46,098 nt of DNA, taken from positions 1 to 46,098 of the forward strand of contig PKXJ01000034.1 of NCBI GenBank assembly GCA_003132305.1, in the 5' to 3' direction. Numbering within the stretch: the first letter of the stretch is position 1; each line of letters starts with the position of its first letter. The position numbers were made by a program, and so were the translations under genes. The notes under the pieces were generated by a model. That model saw only the letters and a list, made by a program, of their open reading frames with translations, did not search any database and was not told where the DNA came from. This DNA is from Acidimicrobiaceae bacterium (GTDB taxonomy: Bacteria > Actinomycetota > Acidimicrobiia > Acidimicrobiales > RAAP-2). Shown here one piece after another: positions 800-23,562 of this stretch.

Positions 800-1714
800 T
801 CAGACGGTGCGTTGAGCGACTAAGTGAGCGACTGCCCAATCCTGCACGGCGATTCCGACGCTCTTGAAGACTGTCCAAGGTGTGTGATTCGGTGGTTGCT
901 GCAAGGCGAGTCCTAGCGGAACCAGATGGCTCGCAGCCAAGATCCCTGAAGCAACCGCCTCAATTATCTCACCAGCCTCGGCGAGAACCGATGCGGGATC
1001 ATCCACAACGACGGTTGCCGCCGCAAAAAGCTCATCTGGGAGTTCTCGCATGCCTGGCTTAAATGCACCGATGGCGTTCACGTGGACCTTAGGGGGGAGC
1101 GAGTCGATCGAGAACAGGGCTCTGAGAGATGTGGTGGCGCAGTTAACAATTTCGGCATCGATGAGTGCCTTGTTGCCATCGAGTTCAACACTGACGCTAG
1201 TGGAGGGAAGCAAGATTTCCAGTCTTGCAAGAAGGCGCTCCGCACGAAGGGGGTCAAGATCTACCACCTTGACATGGGTCAACGGTCGAACCACGTTCAC
1301 GGCCTGAACCTGGAAGTATGCCTGAGCGCCGGCGCCGAACATAGCGAGTCGACTCGCCTCAGGCGGTGCGAGGAGATCAGTGGCGACCCCTACGGCGGCC
1401 CCAGTTCTCAGCGCGGTAATGGCCTCTGCATCAATGATTAGACCATTGGCGTCGGACAGCTCGATCCACAACACAGCTCCTGCTATGGGTGGAGTCCGAT
1501 CAAAATTCAGACTTAGAGACTTGATGACGGCCGAACCAGTTGGTCGATGATACGTGGGCATGATAAGGACCTGGCTTCCTCCGAGCGCGATACGAGTAGG
1601 CATCTCAAACATGCCGGATTCAAAGTCTACGAAGGCCCTCCGAACAGCGTCTATCGCATCCTTCATTTGGACAAGTTCAAAAACACCGTCGTAATCAATG
1701 GTTCTGAAGGGCAC
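800..1714 (-). CDS. ornithine cyclodeaminase / mu-crystallin family protein
   Basis: The 304-residue protein has the normal length for the OCD/mu-crystallin family, whose members are NAD(P)-dependent enzymes acting on amino acids or imino acids (ornithine cyclodeaminase, alanine dehydrogenase, ketimine reductase). Visible are the substrate-side segment ALRTGAAVGVATDLLA (about residues 102-117), the Rossmann glycine loop MFGAGAQA (about 124-131), NAIGAFKPGMRELP (about 216-229) and the terminal family motif VFKSVGIAVQDWAVA. It is the last gene of a leftward operon, 32 bp after the decarboxylase-fold gene. Next to an asparaginase-like enzyme, a role in amino-acid turnover or reduction of a cyclic imine is plausible. 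The exact substrate cannot be told. Confidence 0.9.
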   Translation of the reverse strand: MPFRTIDYDGVFELVQMKDAIDAVRRAFVDFESGMFEMPTRIALGGSQVLIMPTYHRPTGSAVIKSLSLNFDRTPPIAGAVLWIELSDANGLIIDAEAITALRTGAAVGVATDLLAPPEASRLAMFGAGAQAYFQVQAVNVVRPLTHVKVVDLDPLRAERLLARLEILLPSTSVSVELDGNKALIDAEIVNCATTSLRALFSIDSLPPKVHVNAIGAFKPGMRELPDELFAAATVVVDDPASVLAEAGEIIEAVASGILAASHLVPLGLALQQPPNHTPWTVFKSVGIAVQDWAVAHLVAQRTV

Positions 1715-1746: not shown

Positions 1747-2568
1747 CTACAAATCCGATGCCGAGATTCGCTTCATCAGGCGTGGCGAGACTTGGGTGGT
1801 CGACAATACATGCCCCAACGCTCCTCGGAATACACCTGTGAAAAAGTCGGCATGGACTGGTTTGCCGGAACTCAACCAGGCAAGATCGTCAACTTCGGCC
1901 GGAGCATCTCGATACTGAATGGCCGGCTGCGCTTTGACGGCGTGTAGATTGGAAGACTGAGAAACGTCCCTACTGATGACCTGCTCAAGAAGTACCGAGT
2001 TCGGAGCTTCGACGTCTGGAATGACTTGTAGAAGCAGCGTGGGGTTCCTGACCGCAAAAGATGGGTCCGTGGCCGGGTCGTCAGAAATGACGACAGAAGC
2101 ATCGTAACGAGCGGTAGGGCAGGACACCATTGCCGTGGCAGCACGTCCTGTCCGGTGCACTTGGACCTTCGCAGCCTTCACGGGAAAGCCAGCCATTTCG
2201 CGCCCCAATGCGGCGCTGTAGTCCTTGTTCTTATAGCAATGAGCATAGTAGCCGCCGAGCGAACCTTGATAACTTACGGGTATGACCACACCAAAGACGG
2301 CATACTGATCACCGAAGTGATCAATATATGTCGAGAGGCCTCGAAGCGTGGGGTAAGTATAGAACTCAATCCACGCGTGATTCGTAAAGTATTCAAACGG
2401 AGTAGGGGCGAGCACTGATTCGACGGCATCTTGGGGTAACTCAAGTAGAATGGAAAGACCATCACAGTCTCCCTCATAAGCATTATCGGTGATATATAGC
2501 GGCGAGTGGAGCGGCATACTTACTGGTGAATCCCCGGTCAATGCCATGACGATATCTCCCTTACTCAC
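1747..2568 (-). CDS. acetoacetate decarboxylase (ADC) fold protein with altered active-site residues
   Basis: The 273-residue protein matches the ADC family in length and layout: WIEFYTYPT near residue 67, IPVSYQG at 96-102, and the family signature GREMAGFPVKAAKV at 122-135. In clostridial ADC the matching signature reads GREL..YPKKL, where the first Lys is the Schiff-base Lys115. Here that place is Val130 and only the second Lys (131) remains. The partner Glu76 also appears to be Val91, while Glu61 is kept as Glu68. The residue mapping is from my recall of the reference protein. It is therefore probably an ADC-fold enzyme with other chemistry (aldolase, hydratase or lyase) rather than a decarboxylase. 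The GTG start overlaps the upstream stop as TAGTG, so translation is probably coupled to the asparaginase gene. Confidence 0.85.
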   Translation of the reverse strand: MSKGDIVMALTGDSPVSMPLHSPLYITDNAYEGDCDGLSILLELPQDAVESVLAPTPFEYFTNHAWIEFYTYPTLRGLSTYIDHFGDQYAVFGVVIPVSYQGSLGGYYAHCYKNKDYSAALGREMAGFPVKAAKVQVHRTGRAATAMVSCPTARYDASVVISDDPATDPSFAVRNPTLLLQVIPDVEAPNSVLLEQVISRDVSQSSNLHAVKAQPAIQYRDAPAEVDDLAWLSSGKPVHADFFTGVFRGALGHVLSTTQVSPRLMKRISASDL

Positions 2569-3479
2569 TAAAGCTGCAACGCAGAGGACGATGTTTCAAA
2601 CGCTCGTCGCGGAGCATCGTTTGAGTCACAAGCCAGTGCGATCGCCAGTCTCATTCGGGCTTCGCGGGCGGTCAGCGATACGCCGCTATAACATCCTGCG
2701 GATAGCAATCCATGCGAGGTTCCGGGAATGTTTGGATAGCTGGATTTCACGCGACTATGATGCGAAAGAGAAGTGATCACGATATGGGCGCCGGAAGCCA
2801 GATATGCCTCCAGAGATTGGACGATGTCGGGAGGAACATCTCCTGAACCATACGCCTCAAGTACAAGCCCTGCGCTCGGCACTAACTCGATTAGTTGGCG
2901 TGCCCAAGTCCCGCAACCGATTCCGACAGAGAGAACAGGGACGGTTGGCATTACTGGATCGAGTCGGCTCGACGCAGGGACGCGCCACGGTGGCATCATC
3001 GTGTCCGGCGAGGCGGGAAAGTCCCAACGATCTCCTGCCCATCGCTTCTCGAAGGGAACAGAGTATGGAATCCCATCGACGAAGAGACGCAAACGACTGT
3101 CTCCGTCTGAGCGCAGCCAGGTTAGGGCAGCGTCGATTCCACGAACTGGTTTACCCCGCGACGCAGTCTGGAGCGAGACCAGAAGCGCTATTCGGATGTC
3201 GGGAGGGGCGGCCAAGTGGAGGAAGTTACCGACGTCCTCCACTGTGTCCGTTCCCGTAATGACCACGGCTTGATGCTCGCCCCCTTGCGACATGGAGAGT
3301 AACTCTGCCCGCAGCGCTAACAAGTGTGTCCAACTGAGTTCATTGCTCTGAACAGGTTCAAGCTCAACGACCGCGAGGTCTGACTCTCCTAGCAACTCCG
3401 TGCCACTCAAAGTGACGGGCCCAGCCTCGTCGTACGAGAGGGCGATCGTCCCGCCCAGGTTCATGACCTTCGCTGTCAC
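2568..3479 (-). CDS. asparaginase/glutaminase family protein
   Basis: This 303-residue protein carries both asparaginase signatures: the N-terminal nucleophile loop MNLGGTIALSYDEAG (Thr11) and the second Thr-Asp pair in VVITGTDTVEDVGNFLHL (Thr77-Asp78). Family enzymes hydrolyse the side-chain amide of Asn or Gln, and relatives attack other amides. The middle region that usually reads 'GSMRP...DGP.NL' is divergent (LVSLQTASRGKPVRGIDAAL), so the substrate may not be asparagine. No signal peptide is seen, so it should be cytoplasmic. The GTG start at 3479 gives the usual short leader before the GGTI loop; the internal ATG five codons in is an alternative. It is first in a three-gene leftward operon with its own promoter at 3534-3563. 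Confidence 0.85.
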   Translation of the reverse strand: MTAKVMNLGGTIALSYDEAGPVTLSGTELLGESDLAVVELEPVQSNELSWTHLLALRAELLSMSQGGEHQAVVITGTDTVEDVGNFLHLAAPPDIRIALLVSLQTASRGKPVRGIDAALTWLRSDGDSRLRLFVDGIPYSVPFEKRWAGDRWDFPASPDTMMPPWRVPASSRLDPVMPTVPVLSVGIGCGTWARQLIELVPSAGLVLEAYGSGDVPPDIVQSLEAYLASGAHIVITSLSHHSRVKSSYPNIPGTSHGLLSAGCYSGVSLTAREARMRLAIALACDSNDAPRRAFETSSSALQL

Positions 3480-3708: not shown

Positions 3709-4477
3709 TCAGGGCTTTCTCGTTCGGGACCGTCTCGTGGCGTCCTGAAGTCTGTAACTTTCTCCCTTCGTCTCGATGATCTTGCAGCGATGGGTCAACC
3801 GGTCCAGCGTGGCCCCAGTGAGTCGTTCTGAGCCGAGGACTTTGGTCCAGTTCTCGAAGGGCAGGTTGGTCGTGACCATGACGCTGGAGCGCTCGTAGGC
3901 GGTAGCGATCAGTTCGAAGAGCAACTCCGCGCCGACCTTGGTGGTGGGCACGTAGCCAAGCTAGTCGAGCACCAGCAGGTCCAACTTGGACAGTTACGTC
4001 TTGAGCCGAGCAAGCTGTCGCTGCTCCTTGGTCATGTGTGCGGTCAAGTTCAACTTCCTGGATCGTTCAGCTATTCGATGCTGAATCACCAAGTGTTGCG
4101 CTCGCCCCTTGAATCCGCCGAGACTTTCCGGTGCCGGGGTTGCCGATGAAGAGCACGTTCTCTCGTTCGTCGATGAACGAACAGCGCGCGAGTTCGAGCA
4201 CCATCATCTTGTTGACGCTCGGTCTCGCCAGGAAGTCGAACGTGGCGAGTGACTTGGTGGTCGGGAACTTGGCTGCCTTCATCCGACGCTCGGCGGACTT
4301 GCGCTCGCGCTCGAGGAGTTCAAGCTCACAGAGCTGCAACAGGTAGTTCAGGTGGTCCACGTTGTCACTCGATGCCTGGACGGCGACCTTCTCGCACTCG
4401 CTTCGGATCGTGGGCAGTCGCAGGGCCTTCAGGTGGTGACGCAGCAGCACCATCGACTTTGCCTCGAGGCGCTTCAT
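3709..4477 (-). pseudogene. istB: IstB-type helper ATPase of IS21, inactivated
   Basis: IstB is the AAA+ ATPase that helps the IS21 transposase choose its target. The start is the ATG at 4477 (MKRLEAKSMVLLRHHLKALR...), overlapping the istA stop. The N-terminal helical domain and the Walker A motif GNPGTGKS are intact to about 4120. After that the reading frame is lost and part of the usual sequence is missing. It resumes as RLKT*LSKLDLLVLD*LGYVPTTKVG with two nonsense codons, TAA at 3994-3996 (expected Gln) and TAG at 3961-3963 (Glu of the Walker B-side DELGY). The C-terminal part ENWTKVLGSERLTGATLDRL is well kept to 3709. The decay is clear, so no active protein is expected. Confidence 0.85.
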
Positions 4478-4558
4478 GAGTTCACCGCCGTCAAGGCGCG
4501 GTATCGAGAGAGATCGGGAGAGTCGACGTGGACACTGCGCAGATGGACGTGGTCGTCG
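4475..4558 (-). pseudogene. istA: 3' end of an IS21 istA transposase gene
   Basis: Upstream of istB on the minus strand, a frame ending in DSPDLSRYRALTAVNS and a TGA overlaps the istB ATG as ATGA. The 'PDLSRYRAL' wording fits the extreme C-terminus of IstA proteins. Only about 27 codons remain before the sequence joins the IS1634-type remnant. The tail is short, so the assignment leans on its position next to istB. Confidence 0.5.
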
Positions 4559-5252
4559 AACCCCGATTGTCACGGCCGTCGCCAGTAGACAGCTCACCGG
4601 CGCCGACAAGATCGGGCTGCGCCTGGGCAAGGTGATCGACAAGTGGAAGATGGCCAAGCACTTCGATGCGGCGGTCACCAACTCGACGCTCGTGGTCGAG
4701 CGGCGCCAGGGAGCGATTGACGCCGAAGCGGCTCTCGACGGCATCTACGTGCTGCGCACCACCCTCAAAGACGACGAGATGGACGCCCCCGGCGTGGTCG
4801 CGGCCCATAAGGAACTCGCCCACGTGGAGCGCGACTTTCACCATATCAAGGTCGACGATATCTCACTACGTCCGATCCACCACCGCCTGGAAGCCCGGGT
4901 TCGCGCCAACGTCTTCATCTGCATGATGGCCGCCTACCTCGTGTGGCACCTGCGCGAGGCACTGGCGCCGCTCACCTTCACCGATGAGCACCCACCAACC
5001 CGAGAGAACCCCGTGACACCGGCGGTGCGTTCCGCGTCGGCGTCAACGAAGGCCGCCACGAAGCGCAACGAGACCGACGAAGAGGTTCGAGGGTTTCGTG
5101 AACTCCTCGTTCACCTTGGCACGCTCACCCGCAATACCGTCCGCGTCGCCACCGACACGACCAACTCGTTCGAACTGCTCTCGACACTCACGCCCACCCA
5201 GCGCCGGGTCTTCGAACTTCTCGGGGCGCCGGTGCCTCGGCGACTGAAGTAG
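4559..5252 (+). pseudogene. IS1634/IS4-type DDE transposase, C-terminal half
   Basis: From about 4562 the plus strand encodes TPIVTAVASRQLTGADKIGL, followed by a DGIYVLRTTL block, then AHKELAHVERDFHHIKV and RLEARVRANVFICMMAAYLVW, which carries the final catalytic-domain Glu region of IS1634-like transposases. It ends normally at 5252 (TAG). The N-terminal half with the first Asp residues is absent. The upstream in-frame ATG at 4476 lies inside IS21 sequence, so it is not the true start. The fragment abuts the istA tail almost base to base, so one element was cut by the other or a deletion joined them. Confidence 0.8.
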
Positions 5253-5584: not shown

Positions 5585-6226
5585 TTATTCCGCCTGCCCG
5601 GCCCAAATTCCCCTGGTGTGTCGAACGTGCTTGCTGATGAACTCACCAACGTTCTCATCACCAGACACAACCGCCTTCAAGAGTTGTTCGTGTTCATCCG
5701 CCGAGGCAACCAATTGGTACTCTCGGGCCAAATTTGGAAGTCCAAGTAGCCGTGTCTCGTCTCTAAGTCGATCCACGATCTGTACAAGCCTTTTGTTGTG
5801 CAACGCTTCCAGCAGTCTCAGGTGAAATGCGCGATCCGCTTCCAAGAAGCCCTGGAGATCACCGCGACTCGCAGCAAGCCGACAGATTTCGACGAACTCA
5901 GAGCACGCGGCTTGGTCGGCAGGTCCGACATGCCCGCTTAGTCGCTCAATCGCGGGCACTTCTAGCATGAGGCGCAACTCGAGAATCTCGTCCAGATCGT
6001 GTACGGTGAGTTCACGGACGACGAAACCACGGTTGCGCACAATATCGACGAGTCCCGCGTGACCCAAGTCTGCCAATGCTTCCCGGACCGGTGTCGCCGA
6101 AACTTCGAGCTTTTTGGAAATCTGACTAATCGGATACAGCTTGCCCGGAACGAGTTCGCCGGTGACGATGCTTGTTCTCACAGCGCTGCGGACCTGCTCT
6201 CTGAAGCTTAAGTACTCAATCGGCAT
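5585..6226 (-). CDS. GntR-family regulator, FadR/FCD subfamily
   Basis: This 213-residue DNA-binding repressor or activator has an N-terminal winged helix (FREQVRSAVRTSIVTGEL, then ISQISKKLEVSATPVREAL as recognition helices, about residues 8-55). A helical FCD ligand domain follows (LEILELRLMLE-like stretch near 80-90, FLEADRAFHLRLLEA near 143-157, HEQLLKAVVSGD near 180). FCD regulators usually respond to small carboxylates or amino acids and control adjacent transport and catabolic genes. It is divergent from the ABC transporter at 6410 and shares a 183-bp intergenic region with a palindrome at 6338-6353. Regulation of that transporter and of itself is the likely role. Confidence 0.9.
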   Translation of the reverse strand: MPIEYLSFREQVRSAVRTSIVTGELVPGKLYPISQISKKLEVSATPVREALADLGHAGLVDIVRNRGFVVRELTVHDLDEILELRLMLEVPAIERLSGHVGPADQAACSEFVEICRLAASRGDLQGFLEADRAFHLRLLEALHNKRLVQIVDRLRDETRLLGLPNLAREYQLVASADEHEQLLKAVVSGDENVGEFISKHVRHTRGIWAGQAE

Positions 6227-6337
6227 TGGCTCTGTCTCAATCTCAATCTTTCGTCAAGGCGACACGCTGTCCGCACTAGCCCATTGACGTCGAAATCCCT
6301 AATGACAGTTCCCTCCCAGAAGAGCCGCACTCACAAC

Positions 6338-6353
6338 GTAATATGCAAATTAC
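6338..6353. promoter_or_regulatory. palindromic candidate operator between the GntR gene and the ABC transporter
   Basis: GTAATATGCAAATTAC has perfect 5-bp arms (GTAAT/ATTAC) around a 6-bp spacer, in an AT-rich patch 57 bp before the permease start. Size and position suit a GntR-type dimer. No clear -35/-10 pair could be fixed here. Confidence 0.4.
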
Positions 6354-6409
6354 CGTAACATTAAAATCTTCGTTGATGCGACGCAAGCATAGAGGGGACA
6401 GGTGGGAAG

Positions 6410-7363
6410 ATGGGACGCTATATCTTGAAGCGCCTGGGCCTGGCCATCCTCACGCTGCTGCTCCTGAGTTTGATCGTGTTCCTCGCGGGCCAGGTTCTCC
6501 CCGGCAACCCCGGGCGTTTGATTCTCGGCAACTTCGCATCGCAACGGTCGGTAGATATTCTCAATCGGCAGCTCGGACTCGACCATCCAGTGCTGCTCCA
6601 GTATTGGGAATGGGCCACGAGGATCATGCATGGCAACTTCGGACGCTCCTACCAATTCCAGGCGCCAGTTATCTCCTTCCTCTTCCCTGCGGCCGGCCGT
6701 TCACTCAAGCTGGCCTCCTTAGCGTTCGTGATCGTCGTGCCTCTTTCCATCTTGGGCGGAGTGGTAGCTGCGCTTAACCGGGGTCGGACAGTCGACCGGA
6801 TCATCAGCACGATCGGTCTTTCGCTTTCCACTCTCCCGGAGTTCGTCTCGGGGATCGTACTCATCGTCGTCTTCGCCATCGAGTTGAAGATTCTGCCTGT
6901 CAGTGCCAACGCACCGCCCGGCTCCGGCGTCCTCATTCAGCTGCGGTACTTGTTGCTGCCGGCCATCCCGCTGGTGCTCGTGCTTTTCGGTTACATCGCC
7001 CGCATCGCCCGGGCAGGGACCGTCGAAGCTCTCGAGTCCGACTATGTGCGGACGGCGACGCTCAAGGGTCTCCGTCGGCGGACTGTTATCGTGCGCCACA
7101 TGCTGCGGAACTCGATGCTTCCGACCATGACCGTGGTCGCTACCCAAACCGGCTACCTGATCGGCGGTCTCGTCGTAACGGAGACCCTCTTCAACTACCC
7201 CGGTCTCGGCCGGCTGATTTACAACGCAGCCGTTGCGAAGGACTTCCCAATGTTGGAGGCGGGTGTCCTCGTGATCGGTGTCGTCTACTTGACAGCGACG
7301 CTCCTCGCGGATCTGCTCGCCACTTTTCTGAACCCGCGCGTCCGACTGCAGGGGTTCGAGTGA
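6410..7363 (+). CDS. peptide-type ABC transporter permease (DppB/OppB family)
   Basis: A 317-residue inner-membrane permease starts with the family N-terminus MGRYILKRLGLAILTLLLLS (first membrane helix), followed by the long extracytoplasmic loop with LGLDHPVLLQYWEW. About five more hydrophobic segments follow, with the cytoplasmic EAA loop EALESDYVRTATLKGLRRR that docks on the ATPase. DppB/OppB proteins form a heterodimer with DppC/OppC for import of di- and oligopeptides, nickel chelates or related compounds. It is the first gene of a tightly overlapping operon with the next permease and the fused ATPase. The ribosome-binding sequence is weak (gggaag before the ATG). Confidence 0.93.
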   Translation: MGRYILKRLGLAILTLLLLSLIVFLAGQVLPGNPGRLILGNFASQRSVDILNRQLGLDHPVLLQYWEWATRIMHGNFGRSYQFQAPVISFLFPAAGRSLKLASLAFVIVVPLSILGGVVAALNRGRTVDRIISTIGLSLSTLPEFVSGIVLIVVFAIELKILPVSANAPPGSGVLIQLRYLLLPAIPLVLVLFGYIARIARAGTVEALESDYVRTATLKGLRRRTVIVRHMLRNSMLPTMTVVATQTGYLIGGLVVTETLFNYPGLGRLIYNAAVAKDFPMLEAGVLVIGVVYLTATLLADLLATFLNPRVRLQGFE

Positions 7364-8337
7364 TGTCTGGAACGGGTGACGAGGAACCGGGCGGATTGGG
7401 CCGCCTCGGCCGTGCCGCCGTGGACTCCCCGACGGCCGTCGATCCGTTGCTCACCCTGATACTTCCGGTTGACCACGGCCACGGCGCAGTGCTCGGGTCG
7501 TCGGCCAAGCAGGTGCGGCGCCAGCAGTTGGGGCTCCTGCTGCGATCTAGGACTTTCCTCGTCGGAGCTGCGATACTTTTGCTCTGGATCGTGTGCGCGA
7601 TCTTTGGCGGAATGTTCCGTCCCTACGACCCACTGGCCGTGAATCTCTTTACGACGAACGCGCCCCCATCGGGGGTGCACCTGTTTGGTACAGACTCCCT
7701 CGGGCGGGACGTGCTCTCCCGGGCCATCATCGGCTCACGTGAGATCCTGTTCGTGGCGCCCTCTTCTGCCGCCCTCGGCACCATCTTCGGCACGGTCATG
7801 GGTCTCGTCCAGGGCTATTATCGGGGCCTCGTCGACATGATCACAGGACGGATCATTGAGGCGTACCTTGCTCTACCTCTGGTGATTGCAGCCTTCGTGT
7901 TCATCGTCGCCCTTGGACCGTCGATTCTGACTCTGGTCCTGGTGATCAGTATCACTTTCGGCTTTCTCATCTCCCGCACCGTCCGTACTGCAGTGCTGCT
8001 GGAGCGCGATCTGGACTACGTCGCTGCAGCCCGGCTACAAGGTGAGGGCGCGATGCACAACATGTTCGTTGAGATATTGCCAAACGTGATGGGTCCGATC
8101 ATCGTGGAGTTCACCGTGCGCCTCGGCTACGCCATCTTCCTGGTCGCCACCCTCTCGTTTCTCGGATTCGGGGTTAGCCCGCCGACACCCGACTGGGGCG
8201 CTGACATCGCTGCCAACTACCAGTACCTCGTCGCCGGCTACTGGTGGGAGACCCTGTTCCCCGCCCTCGCCATCGCGTCGCTGATCACGGCGATCAATCT
8301 GATGGGTGACTCAATAGAGACCGTGGTCATCCAATGA
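7363..8337 (+). CDS. peptide-type ABC transporter permease (DppC/OppC family)
   Basis: This is the partner permease. A hydrophilic head of about 55 residues precedes the first helix (FLVGAAILLLWIVCAIFGG), as is common for DppC. The family block HLFGTDSLGRDVLSR follows. Further helices and the EAA loop region (LDYVAAARLQGEGAMHNMFV, ILPNVMGPI) end in SFLGFGVSPPTPDWGADI, a strong DppC signature. The ATG at 7363 overlaps the preceding TGA as TGATG; a GTG one codon upstream is an alternative start. Translation is probably coupled to the upstream permease. Substrate specificity cannot be read from the permease. Confidence 0.92.
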   Translation: MSGTGDEEPGGLGRLGRAAVDSPTAVDPLLTLILPVDHGHGAVLGSSAKQVRRQQLGLLLRSRTFLVGAAILLLWIVCAIFGGMFRPYDPLAVNLFTTNAPPSGVHLFGTDSLGRDVLSRAIIGSREILFVAPSSAALGTIFGTVMGLVQGYYRGLVDMITGRIIEAYLALPLVIAAFVFIVALGPSILTLVLVISITFGFLISRTVRTAVLLERDLDYVAAARLQGEGAMHNMFVEILPNVMGPIIVEFTVRLGYAIFLVATLSFLGFGVSPPTPDWGADIAANYQYLVAGYWWETLFPALAIASLITAINLMGDSIETVVIQ

Positions 8338-10394
8338 CGGAGATTGCATCGGGCGTCGGTCGCGCTATCGCCGAGAGCGCCAACGCCTTAGAGGTTGACC
8401 ACCTGGACGTCGCCTACCGCGTGCGCGGCGTGGACCACCTAGCGCTGCGCGACATCGGCTTCAATATCGGTCAGCATGAGTCGTTTGGCCTCGTAGGCGA
8501 GTCGGGTTGCGGCAAGTCGACGACGGCGCTTGCCATAACCCGTTACCTACCCCGCAACGGCCGCATCACCTCCGGCCGCATCGCCTTGAGCGGTCGTGAT
8601 GTGATGTCGATGAGACAGGAGGAGTTGCGCCTGCTGCGTGCCCGCTCGATCTCCGTCGTCTACCAAGATCCGGGACGAGCGCTAAACCCGTCCATGCGTA
8701 TCGGTCGCCAGGTGGCCGAGGTATTCGAGATCCTCGGGATGAAGAAGCGGGAGGCGCTCGAGCGTGCCGAGGAAGCGCTTCGGACGGTGCAGATCGCCGA
8801 CCCCGGCCGCATCATGAGCGCCTATCCACACCAACTGTCAGGCGGGATGCTCCAGCGCGTTGTGATCGCCATGGCGATTGCCGTGGAGCCTACCCTCCTC
8901 ATCCTCGACGAGCCGACGACCGCTCTCGACGCGACCGTCGAGGCGGAGGTGCTCGACCTGGTTTCCGGCTTGCGTGAGCAGTTCGGCACGGCCGTATTGT
9001 TCATCAGTCACAACCTGGCCGTGATCGCAAAGATGTGCGACCGGGTCGGGGTCATATACGCGGGCGAGATCGTAGAGCAGGGGCCAGCTCGCCAGGTCTT
9101 CGATGACCCTCGCCATCCCTACACCGTCGGGCTGCTCCGCTGTGTGCCCCGGCGCGGTCGTCGCAAGGATCTCCATCGCCTGGACACCATCCCGGGCTTC
9201 CCACCGACACCGGGTGAGGTCCCGAGCGGCTGTATCTACGCCGATCGCTGCGCCCTCGCCGACGACCAGTGCCGGGCGGAGACGCCCCCAGTGGTGGATC
9301 TAAGCGCGGGCTGGACGTCTCGCTGCTTCAAGTATGCCGAGGCACCGGAGCTTCCTTGGGCCACGCCCGAGCACTTGGCGACCGGCGCAGGACGCCGGTC
9401 CGATCACCCGGTAATTTCGATCGAGCACGTCTCCAAGACGTACGCCGGCCGGCACGGTGAGGTCGTTCGCGCGCTGGTAGACGTCAACCTGGAGCTGTTC
9501 CCCGGCGAGACCCTCGGGGTGGTTGGTGAGTCCGGCTGTGGGAAGACGACCCTCGCCCGGGTGATAGTCGGACTTACTTCCGCGGATCCGAACTCGGGCG
9601 TAAAGGTCGCCGGCCGCCGGGTCGGTTCGGTGGCGGAGCGAACGCCGGAGGAACTGCGCCTCGTCCAGATCATCTTTCAGAACCCCGACTCGGCTCTGAA
9701 TCGCCGCCACAGTGTGCGCTACATCATCACCCGGGCGCTGACGAAGCTCACCCACTTGAAAGGTGAGGAGCGCGACGCCCGACTGATGACGATGGTCCGA
9801 TCCGTCCGATTGGAACCACGCCACCTGTCGATGCGCCCGGCGCAGCTTTCCGGTGGTCTGAAGCAACGAGTGGCTATCGCTCGGGCATTCGCGGGCTCAC
9901 CGGCTGTTCTCGTCTGCGACGAGCCGACTTCTTCGCTCGACGTATCAGTCCAGGCTGCTATCCTCAACCTGCTCGTCGACCTCCAGACCCGCGAGGGCGT
10001 TACGTACGTCTTCATCTCGCACGACCTCGGGGTCGTCCGATACCTGTCGGACCGGATCGCTGTGCTCTACCTCGGTCGGATCATGGAATACGGACTGGCC
10101 GAGTCGGTCTTCTCCGGACCGCACCACCCCTACACGGAGGCACTCCTTTCTGCCGTCCCGACCCTCGACGGCACCGAGCCGGAGCGGATCCGGTTACGGG
10201 GCGAAATCCCGAGTCCGGCAAATCCGCCGCCGGGCTGCGTGTTCAACACTCGGTGTCATCGCCGCCTCTCCGACGGAACGTGCGAGACGGTCGAACCGAT
10301 ACTACGCGAGATCGAGCCGGGGAAGTTCATGCGCTGCCACCTGCCCATCGAGCAACTTGCGCGGCGTGAGCCGACCGAGGCCAATGAATTCTGA
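8334..10394 (+). CDS. fused double ATP-binding protein of a peptide-type ABC transporter (DppD-DppF fusion)
   Basis: A 686-residue protein joins two complete nucleotide-binding domains. Domain 1 has Walker [13 protein letters not shown] (about residue 56), signature LSGGMLQRV and Walker [13 protein letters not shown]. Domain 2 has [12 protein letters not shown] (about 398), [13 protein letters not shown] and [12 protein letters not shown]. Each ends in the Opp/Dpp C-terminal Cys-containing extension ([15 protein letters not shown] and [11 protein letters not shown]...C). One chain thus supplies both ATP sites that are normally split between DppD and DppF. The ATG overlaps the permease stop by 4 bp (ATGA). 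Such fusions are common in actinobacteria and proteobacteria. Confidence 0.95.
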
Positions 10395-11336: not shown

Positions 11337-13055
11337 ATGGACATTGACCACGAGCGGTTGGACGATCTCAGGAGCGGCCGAGGCCCAATCCCCGAACATG
11401 TGATTGACGAGTATGTCGGCGGCAGGCTTTCCCGGCGCGACTTTGTCCGAGTGGGCGCAATGTTCGGCCTATCCCTCCCTGTCATCACGGGCATCCTTTC
11501 CGCCTCGAAGATGCCCGCCTACGCGGCGTCCAAGCATGGGGGTTCGAATTCAGCGAGCCTCTTGTCTAGCCGAGTCGGCCAAGCTGGTGCCACCATCAAT
11601 GCAGGTATTCTTGCGCCATCGTACGCCCCCAACCCGTTGATCAACAACGACCCTGGCGCCATCTCGCTGTTAAGCCAGGTCGGCGAGATGCTCGTTTATA
11701 TCGGACCCAACAACGTGCCCAAGCCGTGGCTGGCCACTAGCTGGAGCCCGAACGCCAGTGCCACCGTGTGGACCTTCAAGATCAGACAGGGCGTTAAGTT
11801 CAGTGACGGGACCCCGATGACCGTCGACGACGTCGTCTACACATTCCAGATGCTGTGCGATCCGAAGGGTACCGCCAACAGCCTTTCGTTGTTTGCCGGC
11901 GTTCTTGTACCGGCCGGCGTGGTGAAGGTCGACGCAGAGACAGTGGCGTTCCATCTTGAGGCACCGTACGGGGCTTTCCCCGCTGCCACGGCGTCTAACG
12001 CGAACTACAACGGGATCATTGTCCCGAACAACACGAATTACCCGACCTGGGGTAAGACGTTCATCGGCACCGGACCGTTCATGATGAAGTCGTTCAACCA
12101 AACTACGGGTGCCAGTTTCGTGAAGAACCCCGCCTACTGGGGGACGCCCGCTCTTCCCGCCGCGATCGAGATGACGTTCTTCACCGGGGAGCCCTCGATG
12201 GCGGCGGCCCTAGAGTCGGGAGCGATCGACTGTTTGGAGCAGTTCACGGTTTCGACCAGCCCACAGCTGCTTAACGGCGACTACAACGTGACCGTGAGGA
12301 AGAGTAGTGCCATGAGGGAGTGCTCCATGCGCAACGATGTATCGCCGTTCACCAACAAGTACGTGCGCCAGGCCGTCGCGCTGACCTTAGATCGTCCGGC
12401 CATCGTAAAGGCGCTATTCAAGGGTTACGCCGCGATCGGCAACGACAACCCGTTCGCCCCGTCGTTCCCGGAGTCGGACTTGAAGATCCCTCAGCGCAAG
12501 CAGAATCTCAAACTCGCCAAGCAGCTTTTGCATAAGGCTGGTCTCCATCGCGGTTTCCACGCCGACTTATACACCGAGCAGTTGCAAGAGATCCCCCAAC
12601 TCGCTCAGATCATCAAAGCGAGCGCGGCGAAGATCGGAGTGGATATCACCCTCCATATCACCACGGATGGCGAGTATTACGGACAGGGGGTGTTCGGGAA
12701 GTCGAATTGGCTGGATGGCGAAATGAGCCTCGTCGACTTCCTGGGGCGAGCTGTTCCGGACGTCCTTCTCCAGGCGCCGCTGCAATCACGAAATGCCAAG
12801 ACCGGACAAGGATCGTGGAACGCCGCTCACTTCAAGAATCCGACCTACGACAAGCTATCGAAGGAGTACGTGGCCACCGCCGACCTGTCGACGCAGCGCA
12901 AACTGGCCGGTAAGATCGAGACTCTGCTCCTCGACGAGACTCCGATCATCCTCCCCTACTTCTACGACTACCTGGCTGCGAGTCGGAAGAATGTGTACGG
13001 AGTCAACCCCGAGGTAGGTGATGTGTTCTACCTCAACAACGTAACTAAGGGTTGA
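11337..13055 (+). CDS. Tat-exported solute-binding protein, peptide/nickel family (SBP family 5)
   Basis: This 572-residue extracytoplasmic binding protein feeds a peptide-type ABC importer. A 30-residue head is followed by the twin-arginine motif LSRRDFVRVG (Arg33-Arg34), a hydrophobic stretch to about residue 58 and a likely AYA-A cleavage site. Family blocks include ATSWSPNASATVWTFKIRQG, VKFSDGTPMTVDDVVYTF, GTGPFMMKSF and the C-terminal LPYFYDYLAASRKNVYGV. The start is supported by AAAGG nine bases upstream. Substrates of the family range from peptides to opines and glycosides, and the sequence does not settle which. The permease/ATPase genes at 6410-10394 are the natural partners, and a TatA homologue follows. 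Confidence 0.93.
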   Translation: MDIDHERLDDLRSGRGPIPEHVIDEYVGGRLSRRDFVRVGAMFGLSLPVITGILSASKMPAYAASKHGGSNSASLLSSRVGQAGATINAGILAPSYAPNPLINNDPGAISLLSQVGEMLVYIGPNNVPKPWLATSWSPNASATVWTFKIRQGVKFSDGTPMTVDDVVYTFQMLCDPKGTANSLSLFAGVLVPAGVVKVDAETVAFHLEAPYGAFPAATASNANYNGIIVPNNTNYPTWGKTFIGTGPFMMKSFNQTTGASFVKNPAYWGTPALPAAIEMTFFTGEPSMAAALESGAIDCLEQFTVSTSPQLLNGDYNVTVRKSSAMRECSMRNDVSPFTNKYVRQAVALTLDRPAIVKALFKGYAAIGNDNPFAPSFPESDLKIPQRKQNLKLAKQLLHKAGLHRGFHADLYTEQLQEIPQLAQIIKASAAKIGVDITLHITTDGEYYGQGVFGKSNWLDGEMSLVDFLGRAVPDVLLQAPLQSRNAKTGQGSWNAAHFKNPTYDKLSKEYVATADLSTQRKLAGKIETLLLDETPIILPYFYDYLAASRKNVYGVNPEVGDVFYLNNVTKG

Positions 13056-16259: not shown

Positions 16260-17336
16260 GTGGACGCGCCCGTGTTTGACTACATGCGACGGTATAACTT
16301 CAAGAAGCTCGTACTGTGCAACGACAGCGATTCGGGTCTGCGGGCGGTAATTGCGATTCATTCGACCGCACTCGGGCCAGCGACCGGCGGGACGCGGATG
16401 TGGACCTATGCCTCTGAGGAGGCGGCCATCATGGATGCTTTGCACCTCGCGCGCGGCATGACTTACAAGTACGCGGCGGCAGGGCTTGATTTTGGCGGAG
16501 GCAAGGCCGTCATCATCGGTAATTCGAAGAGGGATAAGAGTGAGGCGCTATTGAGGGCATTTGGTCGCATGATTAACCAGCTCGGCGGCGAGTACCAGAC
16601 CGGTGAAGACGTTGGGACGACACTCGAAGACATGGAGATCATCTACTCCGAGACCGATCACCTTGTCACGCTGCCCGTGCACTGCGGAGGCGCGGGTGAC
16701 ATTGCACCGGCCACCGCCCTCGGCTCGGTTGAAGCCATGCGCGCGTGTGCTGCCCGCGTGTGGGGTGCCCCAGAGTTGAAGGGTCGTCGCGTGGCGCTCC
16801 AGGGCCTCGGGGCTGTCGGTTGGTCTGCTTTGGGGATGCTCCTCGAGCAAGGCGCGGAGGTCGTGGTTTGCGACACCGACCAGGAGAAGGTTGCTCGGGC
16901 TGTGAAGGACTACGGCGTTCAGGCCGTCTCGCCGGCGGAGATCTACGACCAGGACGTTGACATCTTTGCACCGTACGCGCTGGGCGGCATCATCAATCCG
17001 GAGACTATTCCTCGCCTGAAGGTGAAGATCGTCGCGGGCTCTGCCAACAATATTTTTGCGGACGAAGAGCGAGACGCGGCTGCGCTCGACGGTCGTGGGA
17101 TTGTGTACGCGGTCGACTATGTTGCGAACTCAGGTGGCACGATCCTCGATACGGACCGCTTTCGTAAAGGCGGTTTTCAGCCCGAACGTGCAATGGCCAA
17201 TGTGCGGACCATATTCAAACGCACCGAAGCGGTGTTTGAGATTGCCGACCGGGAGGGAATCTCTGCTTATCTAGCCGCGAATCACATGGCCGAAGCTCGC
17301 ATCGAGGCTCTTAACCGTGTCCGGCTTCTCGGTTGA
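16260..17336 (+). CDS. Leu/Val/Phe-type amino acid dehydrogenase
   Basis: The 358-residue NAD-dependent enzyme oxidatively deaminates a branched or hydrophobic L-amino acid to its 2-oxo acid and ammonia. The N-terminal domain holds the glycine-rich substrate pocket GPATGGTRMW and the two catalytic lysines in MTYKYAAAGLDFGGGKAVI (Lys70 and Lys82). EDVGTT follows, then the NAD fold with LQGLGAVGWSAL and its terminal acidic residue at VVVCDTD. GSANNIF and VDYVANSGG are typical of leucine/valine dehydrogenases. Length fits the family. GTG is used as start behind GGGAGGG. It is immediately followed by a GntR regulator. Its position suggests it handles an amino acid released by the neighbouring oxidases. 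Confidence 0.93.
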   Translation: MDAPVFDYMRRYNFKKLVLCNDSDSGLRAVIAIHSTALGPATGGTRMWTYASEEAAIMDALHLARGMTYKYAAAGLDFGGGKAVIIGNSKRDKSEALLRAFGRMINQLGGEYQTGEDVGTTLEDMEIIYSETDHLVTLPVHCGGAGDIAPATALGSVEAMRACAARVWGAPELKGRRVALQGLGAVGWSALGMLLEQGAEVVVCDTDQEKVARAVKDYGVQAVSPAEIYDQDVDIFAPYALGGIINPETIPRLKVKIVAGSANNIFADEERDAAALDGRGIVYAVDYVANSGGTILDTDRFRKGGFQPERAMANVRTIFKRTEAVFEIADREGISAYLAANHMAEARIEALNRVRLLG

Positions 17337-17349
17337 ATTCTCAGTCGCC

Positions 17350-18090
17350 ATGGAGGACGATGCAATCAGGATGAGCGAGGTGGCTGCGAGGAATGCTTTG
17401 ATACGGCCAGACCACAATTCAGGGCCGGACGGTCTGGGCGATGAGCCGGGGTCGGAGAACGTCTTGTTGTCGCAGGTGGCCCACGAACGACTACGTCTCG
17501 ATGTTCTCTCGGGTGTGCTGCGCCCGAACCAACGTCTCGTAGAAAAGGAACTGAGCGAGCTTCTCGGGATGAGTCGGACACCGGTTCGATACGCCCTTGT
17601 GCTACTTGCGGTCGACGGTCTGGTCGACCGAGGTAAGCATGGCTGGACAGTGCACGAGTACTCACGCGAGGAGCTCGTCGCCATCTACGAAGTTCGAGGG
17701 GCTCTTGAGGGCTACGCGGCGCGCCTGAGCGCTCTTCGAGCGACCGAGGAGGAGTTGGACGTCATTGAGCGCACGCTGGACTTGGAACGTGGCGAACTTG
17801 ACTCGGCCAAACCCGACTCAAGTGTGAATTTGAACATTGAGTTTCACTCGATGGTGGTTGACTGCTGTGGTAACCAGCGCCTCATCGATTTGGCCGTTCG
17901 CAATGCCGGTTTTTACTTCAACTTCCGCGTCGCCTCAATGTATACCGAGGATGAGTACCAGCGATCGATCGACGACCACTATCGGCTTCTTGCGGCGCTG
18001 CAGCACCACGACGCAGAGTCCGCCGAGCGAACGATGCGTGAGCACATCGCGAAGAGTTTAAAGGTCTTGCTCACTAAGGGTCGATGGTGA
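17350..18090 (+). CDS. GntR-family regulator, FCD subfamily
   Basis: This second FadR-like regulator has a winged helix LSQVAHERLRLDVLSGVLRP followed by LVEKELSELLGMSRTPVRYA, and an FCD domain with YEVRGALEGYAARLSA, NIEFHSMVVDCCGNQRL and DDHYRLLAALQHHDAES (metal/ligand-binding helices). A basic residue in the usual 'TPVREAL' recognition helix is altered to TPVRYAL. The start is uncertain: ATG 17350 is given, while GTG 17317 (overlapping the dehydrogenase end) and ATG 17371 are alternatives. The palindrome at 19422-19434 before the flavoprotein gene is a likely target, which would make this the regulator of the catabolic cluster. Confidence 0.88.
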   Translation: MEDDAIRMSEVAARNALIRPDHNSGPDGLGDEPGSENVLLSQVAHERLRLDVLSGVLRPNQRLVEKELSELLGMSRTPVRYALVLLAVDGLVDRGKHGWTVHEYSREELVAIYEVRGALEGYAARLSALRATEEELDVIERTLDLERGELDSAKPDSSVNLNIEFHSMVVDCCGNQRLIDLAVRNAGFYFNFRVASMYTEDEYQRSIDDHYRLLAALQHHDAESAERTMREHIAKSLKVLLTKGRW

Positions 18091-18154
18091 GTGCGCAGGA
18101 ATATAGCCGCATGCAATGGTGCACGGGCTACGCGACGATAGATGAGGTCTGGTT

Positions 18155-18415
18155 GTGAAACAGTTAGGCCAGCGTTTTGCGGACAAGGTCGTGATCATCA
18201 CGGGTTCGAGTAGTGGCTTCAGGCTCGAAATGGCGAAGAATGTCGCCGAAGATGGAGCGATGGTGGTGACCATTAGTCGGTCCGAGCATCGCGCCGACGC
18301 AATCATCGCCGCCGCTGAGGCGAGATTTTTCGTTGGGTGCGTCGCCACCACGACGTGCCGAGAGTGGGGAGAATCTGAAACGTTAACGGGAGAGTGGGTA
18401 ATACGCAGTAGGTAG
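18155..18415 (+). pseudogene. short-chain dehydrogenase N-terminal fragment
   Basis: The frame starts with FADKVVIITGSSSGFRLEMA, the dinucleotide-binding start of an SDR. The usual TGxxxGIG loop is damaged (GFRLEM instead of GIG..), and only the first two strands (MVVTISRSEHRADAI) follow. From about residue 58 the sequence no longer resembles the family, and it stops at 18415. The catalytic Ser-Tyr-Lys part is absent. This is a second, independent SDR remnant in the window. Confidence 0.65.
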
Positions 18416-18536
18416 TAGGGGCAACCCGGAATAGATGCGGACTTATCAAGGGAACTGAAGGCGGCGTGCTTGCAAGGGCGAGCGTGGCTAGAGAGTTCGA
18501 GGAGCACCAAGATGGGAGCGAGATGAAGGGAAAGCG

Positions 18537-19343
18537 ATGATGATCAATTCACCGGCCGCTTCGGTGTCCAACGACTATCCCGCCGGCCCCTGGGTGGGCG
18601 GGATAGTATCCAGAGCTCGCCAGGACCAACTCGGCTACGGGATCTCAATTGGGATCTTGATGCTCGACTGCCACATCCCCTTCGTTCCAGGTGACGTCGG
18701 CAACGCGTCGACGTACGACTTCCCTGTCCTTTTCCAAAAGGTTCAAGGTGCCACTGGCGATGCGGTCATCACTCGCCAGGACCCCGCGATCACTCCGTAC
18801 TTTGTCGAAGCAGCCCAACTGCTTGAGGCGCAGGGCGTGCGTGCCATCACCGGTGACTGCGCGTACATGGGTGCATACCAAGCGGCCGTTGCGGAGGCGG
18901 TTGAAGTGCCGGTCTTTCTTTCCAGTCTCATGCAAGTCCCGTTGGTGGTGGCCATGCTTGGCCGCCACCAGAAGTTGGCGGTACTCGTGGCTAACGGGAG
19001 CTCGGTCAGCGACCGCCTGCTCGTTCCCGTGGGGATTACTGGTGCCATGCGAGATCGATTGGTCATCCGCGGTCTGGAGGATAAGGAGCACTTCCGCTCC
19101 GTCATTCTTGATGAGAGCGGCGAGTTGGACTTCTCTCGGATGGAGACCGAGGTGGTTGAGTCAGCCATAAGGGTGCTGAAGGACGAACCGTCGGTCGGCG
19201 CCTTCTTGCTGGAGTGCTCCGACCTGCCCCCCTACTCGCACGCCATTCATCGGGTGACGGGGTTACCGGTCTTTGACTGGATCGGTTTCATCAACTATGT
19301 CCACCACGCGGTGGTACCACGCCCTTATCAGGGATTTTTCTAA
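18537..19343 (+). CDS. Asp/Glu/hydantoin racemase superfamily protein
   Basis: The 268-residue enzyme of the two-cysteine racemase fold has both catalytic cysteine sites: AITGDCAYMGAYQ (Cys108) and FLLECSDLPPYSHAI (Cys227). The family includes aspartate/glutamate racemases, hydantoin racemases, maleate isomerases and arylmalonate decarboxylases. A longer N-terminus than the smallest members carries GISIGILMLDCHIPFVPGDV. The start, with tandem ATGs, follows AAGGGA. In this cluster it may racemise or isomerise an amino-acid-related substrate for the amine oxidases downstream; that is inference from context. Confidence 0.85.
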   Translation: MMINSPAASVSNDYPAGPWVGGIVSRARQDQLGYGISIGILMLDCHIPFVPGDVGNASTYDFPVLFQKVQGATGDAVITRQDPAITPYFVEAAQLLEAQGVRAITGDCAYMGAYQAAVAEAVEVPVFLSSLMQVPLVVAMLGRHQKLAVLVANGSSVSDRLLVPVGITGAMRDRLVIRGLEDKEHFRSVILDESGELDFSRMETEVVESAIRVLKDEPSVGAFLLECSDLPPYSHAIHRVTGLPVFDWIGFINYVHHAVVPRPYQGFF

Positions 19344-19421
19344 GTGGGTGATTGAAGCTGAGTTGAGTGGAGCGTTGGACAGAGCAATGAGGAAGTTACG
19401 AGCGAAAGGAAGTTTCCCACG

Positions 19422-19434
19422 TGGTCACTGACCA
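19422..19434. promoter_or_regulatory. perfect 13-bp palindrome, candidate GntR/FCD operator
   Basis: TGGTCACTGACCA is a perfect palindrome around a single central base, ending 12 bp before the ATG at 19447. It resembles the TGGTC...GACCA half-sites of FadR-type regulators, with slightly wider spacing. A bound regulator here would block translation-proximal transcription of the flavoprotein gene. Confidence 0.5.
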
Positions 19435-19446
19435 AAGAGGCGTGAA

Positions 19447-21444
19447 ATGACAGAGGAATCGCAGTGGGAGAGAATCGACGTCGGATCGATCACGCAGAAT
19501 GTATGGTTCCCGTACCTTTTCTCGCCGCTCAGGGTGGGCCCGATCACTCTGAAGAATCGTATCGTGAACTCCGCCCACCAGACGGGGTTCGCCCACCATG
19601 GTAGTTATACGTCTCAGCTTCGCGCCTATCACCGGGAGCGTGCCCGCGGCGGTGCCGCAGTGATTCTTTCCCAGGCGACCAATGTCGTTCCCGGCTACCT
19701 TGACCTCTGGAATGTCGACGACACCATTATCCAGCAATATCGCGAGGTCGTTGCCACCGTCGCTGAGTACGGGGCCCACTATTTTGCTGAACTTTCGCAT
19801 CCCGGCCGTCAGAGTCACTACACGGGTCCCGAGACGGACTTTTACGAGGCACCTTCGGCTACGCCGCTACTAATCGACGGCGTTGACTGGCGGGTGCCGC
19901 ACGCGCTCGAGACCGAGCGCATCCGCGAGATCATTGGGGCCTTTGGTGAGGCCGCAGGACGCTGTCGAGAAGGCGGCGTGACCGGCATTGAACTGCACTT
20001 CGCGCACGGCAACCTCGTCGAGCAGTTCATGTCGCCACTGACGAACCACCGGGTCGACGAATGGGGAGGCTCACTCGAGAACCGTTTGCGATTCGCGAAG
20101 GAGGTCGCGACGGCGGTGCGCGCTGCGGCCGGACGGGACCTCGCGGTCGGTGCCCGGATCACCGGTTCGGGTCTCGATGTTGGCGAGCCTAGCCAGCTCG
20201 ACATGCTTGAGATTGCCGGGACCATCGACTCGTGGGAACTCCTCGACTACATGTCGGTCACCATGGGTCACTACGCCGACGAGTTCAACACTGTCCGAAA
20301 CATCCCCAACATGACGTTCGAGCCCGGCCTGTGGTCGCGTTTCGGCAAGGGCGTGAAGAACGTAGTTGACGTCCCCGTCTTTCTCGTTGGGCGCGTCAAT
20401 CATCCGCGGGTGGCCGAGGAACTGATCGCGGGAGGCAGTTGCGATGCGGTGGTGATGGCCCGAGCGCTCATCGCGGACCCGTACTTTCCTGTAAAGGCCG
20501 AGACGGGAAGGGTGAACGATATCCGGCCGTGCGTGGGCGCGATGAACTGCTTGCGGCATCTCTACCGAGGCAACGGTATCCGCTGCATCCATAACCCCAC
20601 GGTGAGTCGGGAAGAACGTCTGGGCGGCGAGTTGACGCTCGCGAATGTTCGACGGCGTGTCGTAGTTGTTGGGGGAGGCCCGGGTGGGCTCGAGTGCGCC
20701 CGGGTCGCCGCTCTGCGCGGACACGAGGTCGTTCTTCTCGAACGCGCCGCCACTTGGGGCGGGCAAGTGCGTGCTGCATCACGGCTGCCTGGACGCAGTG
20801 AACTCGCCCAAGTGGTCGACTGGCTGGGCGGCCAGTGCGAATCGGCTGGGGTGACCGTCAAGTTCGGCATCGAGGCGTTGCCGGACATGGTGGCCTCGTA
20901 CGGTCCTGACGCGGTCGTGGTGGCGACGGGCTCGGCCATGGCGCCGGCGAGTTTGCCGGGTGAGATTGCCGTATACGGCGCGCTGGATGTGTTCGACGAT
21001 ACAAAAAACTTCGGGTCTCGGGTGGTTGTTTTCGATGAGTTCGGTGACTGGCAAGGCTTCGGTGTGGCGTACGCCCTCGCCTCGCGCGGCGTTGACGTTG
21101 AGTTCGTCACGCCGACCATCTTTCCTGGCTCCGCCCTCGAACTCACGAACCGGCGTATCGCGTACGAGCGACTGGTAGCACTCGGTGTCGAGTTCCATCC
21201 CGTCGCGACGTTGATGCGTTCGGAGGGAAGTGCCGTCGTGCTGCGCTGTGGCTATGGTGCGGTGGAAAAAGTGCTGGAGGACATCGACGCGGTCATCTCG
21301 GTAACATTTCCTAAAGCGGACGACGCCATCTACCACGCCCTCGCTGGACTGGTCCCCGAGCTACTGCTGGTGGGAGATGCCCTCTCACCTCGCGGGATAG
21401 AGGAAAGTGTCTACGACGGCCATATGGCTGGACGGAGGCTCTGA
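19447..21444 (+). CDS. NADH:flavin oxidoreductase / N-demethylase type flavoprotein (FMN barrel, Fe-S and FAD/NAD domains)
   Basis: This 665-residue multi-domain enzyme has the design of 2,4-dienoyl-CoA reductase and trimethylamine dehydrogenase. The FMN TIM barrel (about 20-350) has FAELSHPGRQSH, HFAHGNLVEQFMSPLTNHR and WGGSLENRLRF. A cluster motif follows, RPCVGAMNC...GIRCIHNP, then FAD/NAD domains starting with RRVVVVGGGPGGLECARVAA (about 402). The usual four-Cys Fe-S motif C-x2-C-x2-C-x11/12-C has Ala in place of the second Cys. As I recall, a CVGA variant occurs in N-methylproline/stachydrine demethylase-like members. Together with the amine oxidases and cupin nearby, oxidative demethylation or reduction of an amino-acid derivative is plausible. 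Ribosome-binding AAAGAGG precedes the ATG. Confidence 0.9.
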   Translation: MTEESQWERIDVGSITQNVWFPYLFSPLRVGPITLKNRIVNSAHQTGFAHHGSYTSQLRAYHRERARGGAAVILSQATNVVPGYLDLWNVDDTIIQQYREVVATVAEYGAHYFAELSHPGRQSHYTGPETDFYEAPSATPLLIDGVDWRVPHALETERIREIIGAFGEAAGRCREGGVTGIELHFAHGNLVEQFMSPLTNHRVDEWGGSLENRLRFAKEVATAVRAAAGRDLAVGARITGSGLDVGEPSQLDMLEIAGTIDSWELLDYMSVTMGHYADEFNTVRNIPNMTFEPGLWSRFGKGVKNVVDVPVFLVGRVNHPRVAEELIAGGSCDAVVMARALIADPYFPVKAETGRVNDIRPCVGAMNCLRHLYRGNGIRCIHNPTVSREERLGGELTLANVRRRVVVVGGGPGGLECARVAALRGHEVVLLERAATWGGQVRAASRLPGRSELAQVVDWLGGQCESAGVTVKFGIEALPDMVASYGPDAVVVATGSAMAPASLPGEIAVYGALDVFDDTKNFGSRVVVFDEFGDWQGFGVAYALASRGVDVEFVTPTIFPGSALELTNRRIAYERLVALGVEFHPVATLMRSEGSAVVLRCGYGAVEKVLEDIDAVISVTFPKADDAIYHALAGLVPELLLVGDALSPRGIEESVYDGHMAGRRL

Positions 21445-21535
21445 CGCAAGTTCTGGATCAAGACGTGAAGGTGCTCGCGGTCGAGCGGATCGCCGAGTTG
21501 GAGAAGGTAAGGCTTCGAGAGAGGGAGGTAGGGCG

Positions 21536-21904: not shown

Positions 21905-21989
21905 GAAACACGTCTCGAATTGAAGAGGCGAATAGAGCGATGTCGCGACCATCAACGGCATTTCAGAGGTGACGAAGGGAGGGATCGAC

Positions 21990-23434: not shown

Positions 23435-23562
23435 TGACCAAAGCGAAAGCGACTGCCTTACCGAGGGCCTTCGAGGGCGGGGCGGACCAAGAAACTCCAA
23501 TCAATGCGTGGAAGAACGATGATCTTCTGATGAGTTGGGGTCTGGTTGCGTTGTCGCGCTGA
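23434..23562 (+). CDS. possible 42-residue protein overlapping the oxidase stop
   Basis: A short frame begins at an ATG overlapping the oxidase stop (TGATG), giving MTKAKATALPRAFEGGADQ and ending at 23562 in ALSR. No family is recognised. It could be a small coupled protein, the head of a gene whose remainder has been lost, or chance. The lack of its own ribosome-binding site is not decisive, because coupling could serve. Confidence 0.3.
   Translation: MTKAKATALPRAFEGGADQETPINAWKNDDLLMSWGLVALSR

Follow-up and report, generated by a model that had tools for sequence, protein, structure and literature searches.

A possible relocation of the catalytic lysine in an actinobacterial protein of the acetoacetate decarboxylase family

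The window, i.e. the whole stretch of 46,098 nucleotides that was analysed, encodes a member of the acetoacetate decarboxylase (ADC) family that carries a valine where the Schiff-base lysine is found in other members. A new lysine occupies a column that corresponds to a reported pocket residue. We propose that the catalytic lysine of this ADC-fold protein has moved, so that the key residue would be relocated and the enzyme would not be dead, a reading to which we give slightly less than an even chance. More tentatively still, the case would represent a natural migration of the catalytic lysine in the ADC fold, leading to a new Schiff-base enzyme in an actinobacterial cyclic-imino-acid or peptide-derived pathway.

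The open reading frame runs on the minus strand from 2568 down to 1747 and encodes 273 residues from a GTG start. An ATG at residue 8 is a likelier start, since both relatives described below can begin there. Read on the plus strand, the same coordinates contain seven stops. The protein matches the Pfam profile PF06314 (ADC) with 68.3 bits for a cut-off of 29.8 and misses the cut-off of the NCBIfam subfamily PRK02265 (42.3 bits versus 150). It is a real minus-strand gene and a Pfam ADC member. The motif GREMAGFPVKAA and the block DQYAVFGVVIPVS, on which the initial annotation of this DNA was built, are both present in the protein.

That annotation held that the Schiff-base lysine and its partner glutamate were both replaced by valine. 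In phmmer comparisons with solved structures, the segment GFPVK falls on GFPKK or AYPKK of 3bgt, 3c8w and 3bh2, the last of which we take to be the acetoacetate decarboxylase of Clostridium acetobutylicum. A recount of the 3bh2 alignment equates Val130 with Lys115, Lys131 with Lys116, Val91 with Glu76, Lys113 with Leu98, Cys111 with Met96, Glu68 with Glu61 and Cys35 with Arg29. Val130 (codon GTG, 2179-2181, minus strand) is placed on Lys115 by three methods, phmmer, MAFFT and a profile built without the window clade. In the profile alignment, this column contains Lys in all 142 other ADC-family rows and Val in the three rows of the window clade. An earlier set of 84 distinct rows gave 81 Lys and three Val. 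Lys131 (codon AAG, 2176-2178, minus strand) does not fall on the Lys115 column, an outcome that the annotation itself had named as contradicting it; the residue sits on the Lys116 column in both the profile alignment and the 3bh2 recount. From these alignments, loss of the canonical Lys115 in favour of Val130 is firmly supported, as the annotation had claimed.

The case of the glutamate is less clear-cut. Val91 (codon GTC, 2296-2298, minus strand) is aligned with Glu76 by phmmer and by the profile, where the column is Glu in 123 of the 141 other rows having a residue there. MAFFT, run with 13 sequences, aligns Asp83 (2320-2322) with Glu76 instead, because it places the 8-residue insertion of the clade elsewhere. 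Replacement of Glu76 by Val91, the second part of the claim, is therefore probable. A few other family members keep Lys115 without Glu76 (L064, L065, L052, L060, L058, L062 and L063), having Gly, Ala, Leu or Val in the Glu76 column. Thus, it is the missing lysine that sets the clade apart, since the glutamate is missing elsewhere too.

The window clade has three members. The two relatives come from a Thermomonosporaceae MAG (contig L001, 10,754 bases) and from Dactylosporangium sp. AC04546 (L002), and their proteins are 74% and 70% identical to that of the window. Since they were found by scanning one genome per species with short exact peptide patterns, there are at least two relatives. Val130 is found in three separate assemblies. 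A search of 396 genomes of the phylum for a further ortholog found none; four genomes had any match, one of them being the window's own and the others giving weak, partial matches. Five genomes of the same genus gave no match to the protein. Among 150 genomes of the Dactylosporangium family (four with matches) and 394 of its class (three with matches), one match was each time that of L002, the others were weak and partial, and no further ortholog was seen. Three scans of viral contigs, for orthologs or for a deeper alignment, gave no relative. In two plasmid searches, all members found were below 60% identity (40 of 40 and 39 of 39 records, with 25 from Rhizobium in each). A 3-hydroxybutyrate dehydrogenase gene lies near the ADC gene in three of five plasmid neighbourhoods; of the other two, one is the Shinella locus described below and one carries no annotation. 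The three clade sequences probably descend from a single event on a long branch, so that the two changes do not count as independent of each other.

The rows used for comparison were drawn from phylum genomes (PF06314 matches in 145 of the 396 sampled), plasmids and related genomes. The final set contains 145 distinct rows taken from 142 loci; the profile used to align them was built on 82 sequences without the window clade. The 142 other rows are a non-random sample that leans to better matches, with the best 30 loci and 99 chosen among the matches listed; beyond those 129 places, rows come from L003, L011, L013, L014, L016-L020 and L096. Second gene copies (L004-L010, L012, L094) were excluded, as were extended or different stretches (L090-L093, L098-L103), and L015, L095 and L097 had no profile match and are not counted. 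The tree was calculated from match columns only, with one short row of L070 omitted.

Three lysines, at positions 113, 115 and 131, are invariant in the three clade sequences. In the profile alignment, the corresponding columns contain Lys in 0, 21 and 70 of the 142 other rows, and Lys113 is thus the only one of the three that is clade-specific. In those rows, column 113 contains Val (103), Leu (20), Glu (7), Met (6), Ile (4) or Gln (2). Lys113 (codon AAG, 2230-2232, minus strand) is placed on the Leu98 column by the profile alignment and the 3bh2 recount. According to PMC4520260, the pocket that surrounds Lys115 and Glu76 includes Phe26, Gly71, Tyr74, Met96, Leu98 and Tyr113. With Lys113 on Leu98 and Val130 on Lys115, the catalytic lysine and the commonest pocket residue at column 113, valine, have therefore in effect swapped places. 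The canonical lysine is lost and a clade-specific one is gained at a position of the reported pocket (PMC4520260), while the scaffold positions of the motif are retained, and covalent Schiff-base chemistry may therefore persist with the lysine moved.

The other clade-specific residues lie mostly in the same region. As a control for the long branch, the residues invariant in the clade were compared with the other rows. Among 115 match positions invariant in the clade, seven (71, 111, 113, 126, 130, 132 and 150) show residues unseen in the 142 other rows, and five of the seven are clustered within 111-132. Six columns, out of those with at least 120 residues, are at least 85% conserved in the other rows; the clade keeps four of them (89, 122, 127, 129) and changes two, 91 and 130, which are the catalytic pair. 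With clade-only residues limited to 7 of 115 positions and the changes in conserved columns confined to 91 and 130, the pattern looks like focused active-site remodelling rather than decay.

Two AlphaFold models of the protein were obtained, with input alignments made of the three clade proteins, and their mean pLDDT values are 35.5 and 31.8. Because both models failed, the residue numbers of one paper are what places Lys113 in the pocket. The numbers given there for Tyr74, Glu76, Met96, Leu98, Tyr113 and Lys115 match the numbering of 3bh2; Gly71 does not, since 3bh2 has Leu71 between Gly70 and Gly72, and Phe26 falls beyond the stretch covered by the alignment (PMC4520260). If the published list is taken at face value, the positions of Glu76 (Val91) and Leu98 (Lys113) are both inside the pocket. 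The model with a pLDDT of 35.5, at low confidence, has strands at 91-100 and 103-112, which would be compatible with a two-residue hairpin turn at Q101-G102. With such a turn, residue 113 would not share a face with residue 91. Because of the Gly71 mismatch, and because the low-confidence strands speak for this unfavourable register, we have slightly lowered our estimate for a migrated lysine.

The same residues can be read in other ways. The protein may be a pseudoenzyme or a binding protein, in which a carboxylate ligand would be bound with Lys113 as salt-bridge partner and which would act as a carrier, a regulator or an enzyme partner without covalent catalysis. We consider this rather unlikely. 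Both catalytic positions are changed, subject for Glu76 to the Asp83 alternative given by MAFFT, and in DUF2071, an ADC-like family related to this one, Lys115 is reported to be missing as well (PMC4520260). Against it, the pocket motif is strongly conserved in three genomes and the new lysine is at a listed pocket position.

A non-Schiff-base enzyme using the same pocket, such as an isomerase, a lyase or a hydrolase in which the acid/base or nucleophile would be Cys111, His110, Lys113 or Glu68, appears less probable again. Cys111 (codon TGC, 2236-2238, minus strand) is found in the window clade only, on the Met96 column by the profile alignment and the 3bh2 recount, a position that also belongs to the pocket listed in PMC4520260. 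Together with Cys150, another clade-only residue, it fits a different chemistry and thereby counts against a relocated Schiff base. Glu68 aligns with Glu61 of 3bh2. However, His110 and Glu68 occur in 28 and 2 of the 142 other rows, respectively, and neither is special to the clade.

Takeover of the Schiff base by Lys131 is very improbable. This residue is adjacent to the lost lysine and invariant in the clade, but in its column, that of Lys116, 70 of 142 members have a lysine in addition to Lys115, and Lys131 was set aside as the replacement lysine on this count. In the Clostridium enzyme, Lys116 presumably points away from the cavity, which we also counted against Lys131. Finally, that the protein is an ordinary acetoacetate decarboxylase, with an apparent loss due to misalignment or sequencing error, would agree with its membership in PF06314 but is largely refuted by the agreement of three separate assemblies and of three alignment methods on Val130.

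The neighbouring genes fit the amino-acid-type operon suggested by the initial annotation, with asparaginase-like, ornithine-cyclodeaminase/mu-crystallin-like and oligopeptide-type ABC transporter genes close to the ADC-like gene. On the minus strand of the window, the order is asparaginase-like, ADC-like and ornithine cyclodeaminase (OCD)/mu-crystallin-like. The asparaginase-like hydrolase (2568-3479, minus strand, 303 residues) overlaps the ADC-like gene by one base, and the OCD/mu-crystallin family protein (800-1714, minus strand, 304 residues), which is reductase-like, lies 32 nt after the ADC-like gene. A GntR/FCD-type regulator is encoded at 5585-6226 (minus strand). The transporter genes are on the opposite strand, past insertion-sequence remnants. 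They comprise an oligopeptide/nickel-type permease (6410-7363, plus strand), whose best NCBIfam match is below the cut-off, a second permease named by sequence reading (7360-8337, plus strand), a fused double ATPase that belongs to this transporter (8334-10394, plus strand) and a family-5 substrate-binding protein (11337-13055, plus strand). Relatives of both permeases adjoin the two other ADC-like genes.

In the Dactylosporangium locus, all genes run one way: substrate-binding protein, two permeases, fused ATPase, amidase, asparaginase-like, ADC-like, OCD-like and a CehA/McbA-type metallohydrolase. In L001, the ADC-like and OCD-like genes come after transporter genes. The ketimine-reductase-like (OCD-like) gene adjoins the ADC-like gene in all three loci, which also all have oligopeptide-type transporter genes, and an asparaginase-like neighbour is found in two of them. 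The asparaginase-like gene was not found in the L001 contig or genome, and it is therefore no fixed part of the set, unless the MAG has a gap at this place. Between the enzyme and transporter genes of the window lie an IstB/IS21-type fragment (4067-4744, minus strand) and a transposase-like ORF (4476-5252, plus strand) recognised by sequence reading and having no Pfam match. Because these remnants intervene while the L002 genes run one way, a rearrangement driven by insertion sequences is likely in the window.

Some features of the three loci stand apart. The second permease gene of L001 (1258-2188) matches in two pieces, which suggests a frameshift or an assembly error. Downstream in L002 are a PucR-type regulator and a proline dehydrogenase, both named by sequence reading, and an aldehyde dehydrogenase, which may form an unrelated proline operon. 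A second amino-acid-type block of the window (16260-25070) contains a Glu/Leu dehydrogenase-like protein, a GntR/FCD regulator, an Asp/Glu-racemase-like protein (below the cut-off), an old-yellow-enzyme-type oxidoreductase, an EutQ-type cupin and two DAO-type oxidoreductases.

The nearest solved structure of the OCD-like protein is the pyrroline-2-carboxylate reductase 6t3e (E 1.3e-28), and all NCBIfam equivalog matches of the protein score below their cut-offs. It has IGAFKPG where alanine dehydrogenase 1omo has IGADGPG, with Phe for Asp. This Asp of 1omo is presumably at the place of cyclodeaminase Asp228, a residue that the OCD-like protein lacks on this assignment. Because 6t3e is the nearest structure and Phe replaces the 1omo Asp, an imino-acid reductase appears more likely than a cyclodeaminase. 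The asparaginase-like protein of the window has both NLGGT, with the asparaginase nucleophile Thr, and GTDT, and comparison with the asparaginase proper of this genome agrees that the nucleophile is present. The Thr of GGT is presumably the nucleophile and the Asp of GTDT the catalytic Asp90. The L002 protein (5995-6972), 59% identical to that of the window, keeps NLGGT and has GTGT in place of GTDT.

A pathway built around a relocated Schiff-base lysine may be drawn from this gene order. The Opp-type transporter would import an amide- or peptide-like compound, which the asparaginase-like hydrolase would open in the window organism and in Dactylosporangium, the latter having also an amidase. 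The ADC-like protein would act on the opened compound. Lys113 would project into the old hydrophobic pocket, now with Val91, Val130, Ala126 and Cys111, and a 2-oxo or 3-oxo acid would be bound to it as a Schiff base. As the carboxylate of Glu76 has probably been lost, this covalent intermediate could be steered to aldol-type cleavage, dehydration or cyclisation. The OCD/mu-crystallin-like reductase would then reduce an imino acid, possibly cyclic, to an amino acid such as proline or pipecolate.

Acetoacetate is probably not what the protein decarboxylates, and the idea of the initial annotation that another reaction is catalysed is plausible. The substrate is likely a keto or imino acid. Since homology makes the partner an imino-acid reductase, formation or opening of a keto or imino acid from an imported amide is favoured. 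Relocation of the lysine is argued for by the column counts, with Lys lost at 130 (142/142 in the other rows, Val in 3/3 of the clade) and gained at 113 (0/142 versus 3/3). It is also argued for by identity across the clade, since the values for the ADC-like protein resemble those of its neighbours (72 and 67% for the OCD-like protein, 71 and 71% for the first permease). Further arguments are the reductase-like OCD relative beside the gene in three of three loci, and the precedent for a migrated functional lysine in the kinases WNK1 and POMK.

Acetoacetate decarboxylase is a textbook case of a pocket tuning the pKa of a lysine. If the proposal is true, a lysine on another wall of the cavity would test directly whether the pocket, and not the exact position of the residue, makes it reactive. 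The case also warns that a lost catalytic residue need not mean a dead enzyme, and it marks a small actinobacterial gene set around an ADC-like protein.

The window protein shares with the acetoacetate decarboxylase structures 3bgt, 3c8w and 3bh2 the PF06314 fold, a motif of the type G-[FY]-P-x-K or like, and Glu61, equivalent to Glu68. It differs from 3bh2 by the exchanges of Lys115 for Val130, probably Glu76 for Val91, Leu98 for Lys113, Met96 for Cys111 and Arg29 for Cys35, and by the 8-residue insertion near the Glu76 strand. The nearest branch of the tree (support only 0.744) contains Asp76-type proteins of L013, L014 and L016 (two in the latter) and Glu76 proteins of L016 and L019. The Asp76-type proteins keep Lys115, and they have Glu at positions 96 and 98, where the window clade has Cys and Lys. 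Those of L016, a Shinella plasmid (641-1405 and 1682-2422), are near an amino-acid ABC transporter and a gene annotated proC, which one of them adjoins.

The active-site lysine of MppR presumably sits at the canonical place. MppR, an ADC-like cyclase of enduracididine synthesis, is described as using this kind of lysine (PMC10367076); what it has in common with the window protein is an ADC-like fold in amino-acid-type, probably non-decarboxylating chemistry. DUF2071 (PF09844), a member of the ADC-like clan, is reported in PMC4520260 to be devoid of Lys115 and to keep Glu76, whereas the window clade has probably lost Glu76. The window protein has no PF09844 match at E ≤0.01, PF06314 alone being reported. 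Within the literature searched for ADC-family proteins with a missing or moved lysine and for the gene set, most subscription journals being outside its scope, this description of DUF2071 was the sole relevant statement seen. A likeness for the lysine itself comes from another fold. In WNK1 and POMK, according to PMC10211241, the essential lysine is found on an adjacent strand within the active site and mutation of this migrated residue abolishes activity; the likeness is that of a migrated lysine, the kinase fold being unrelated to the ADC fold.
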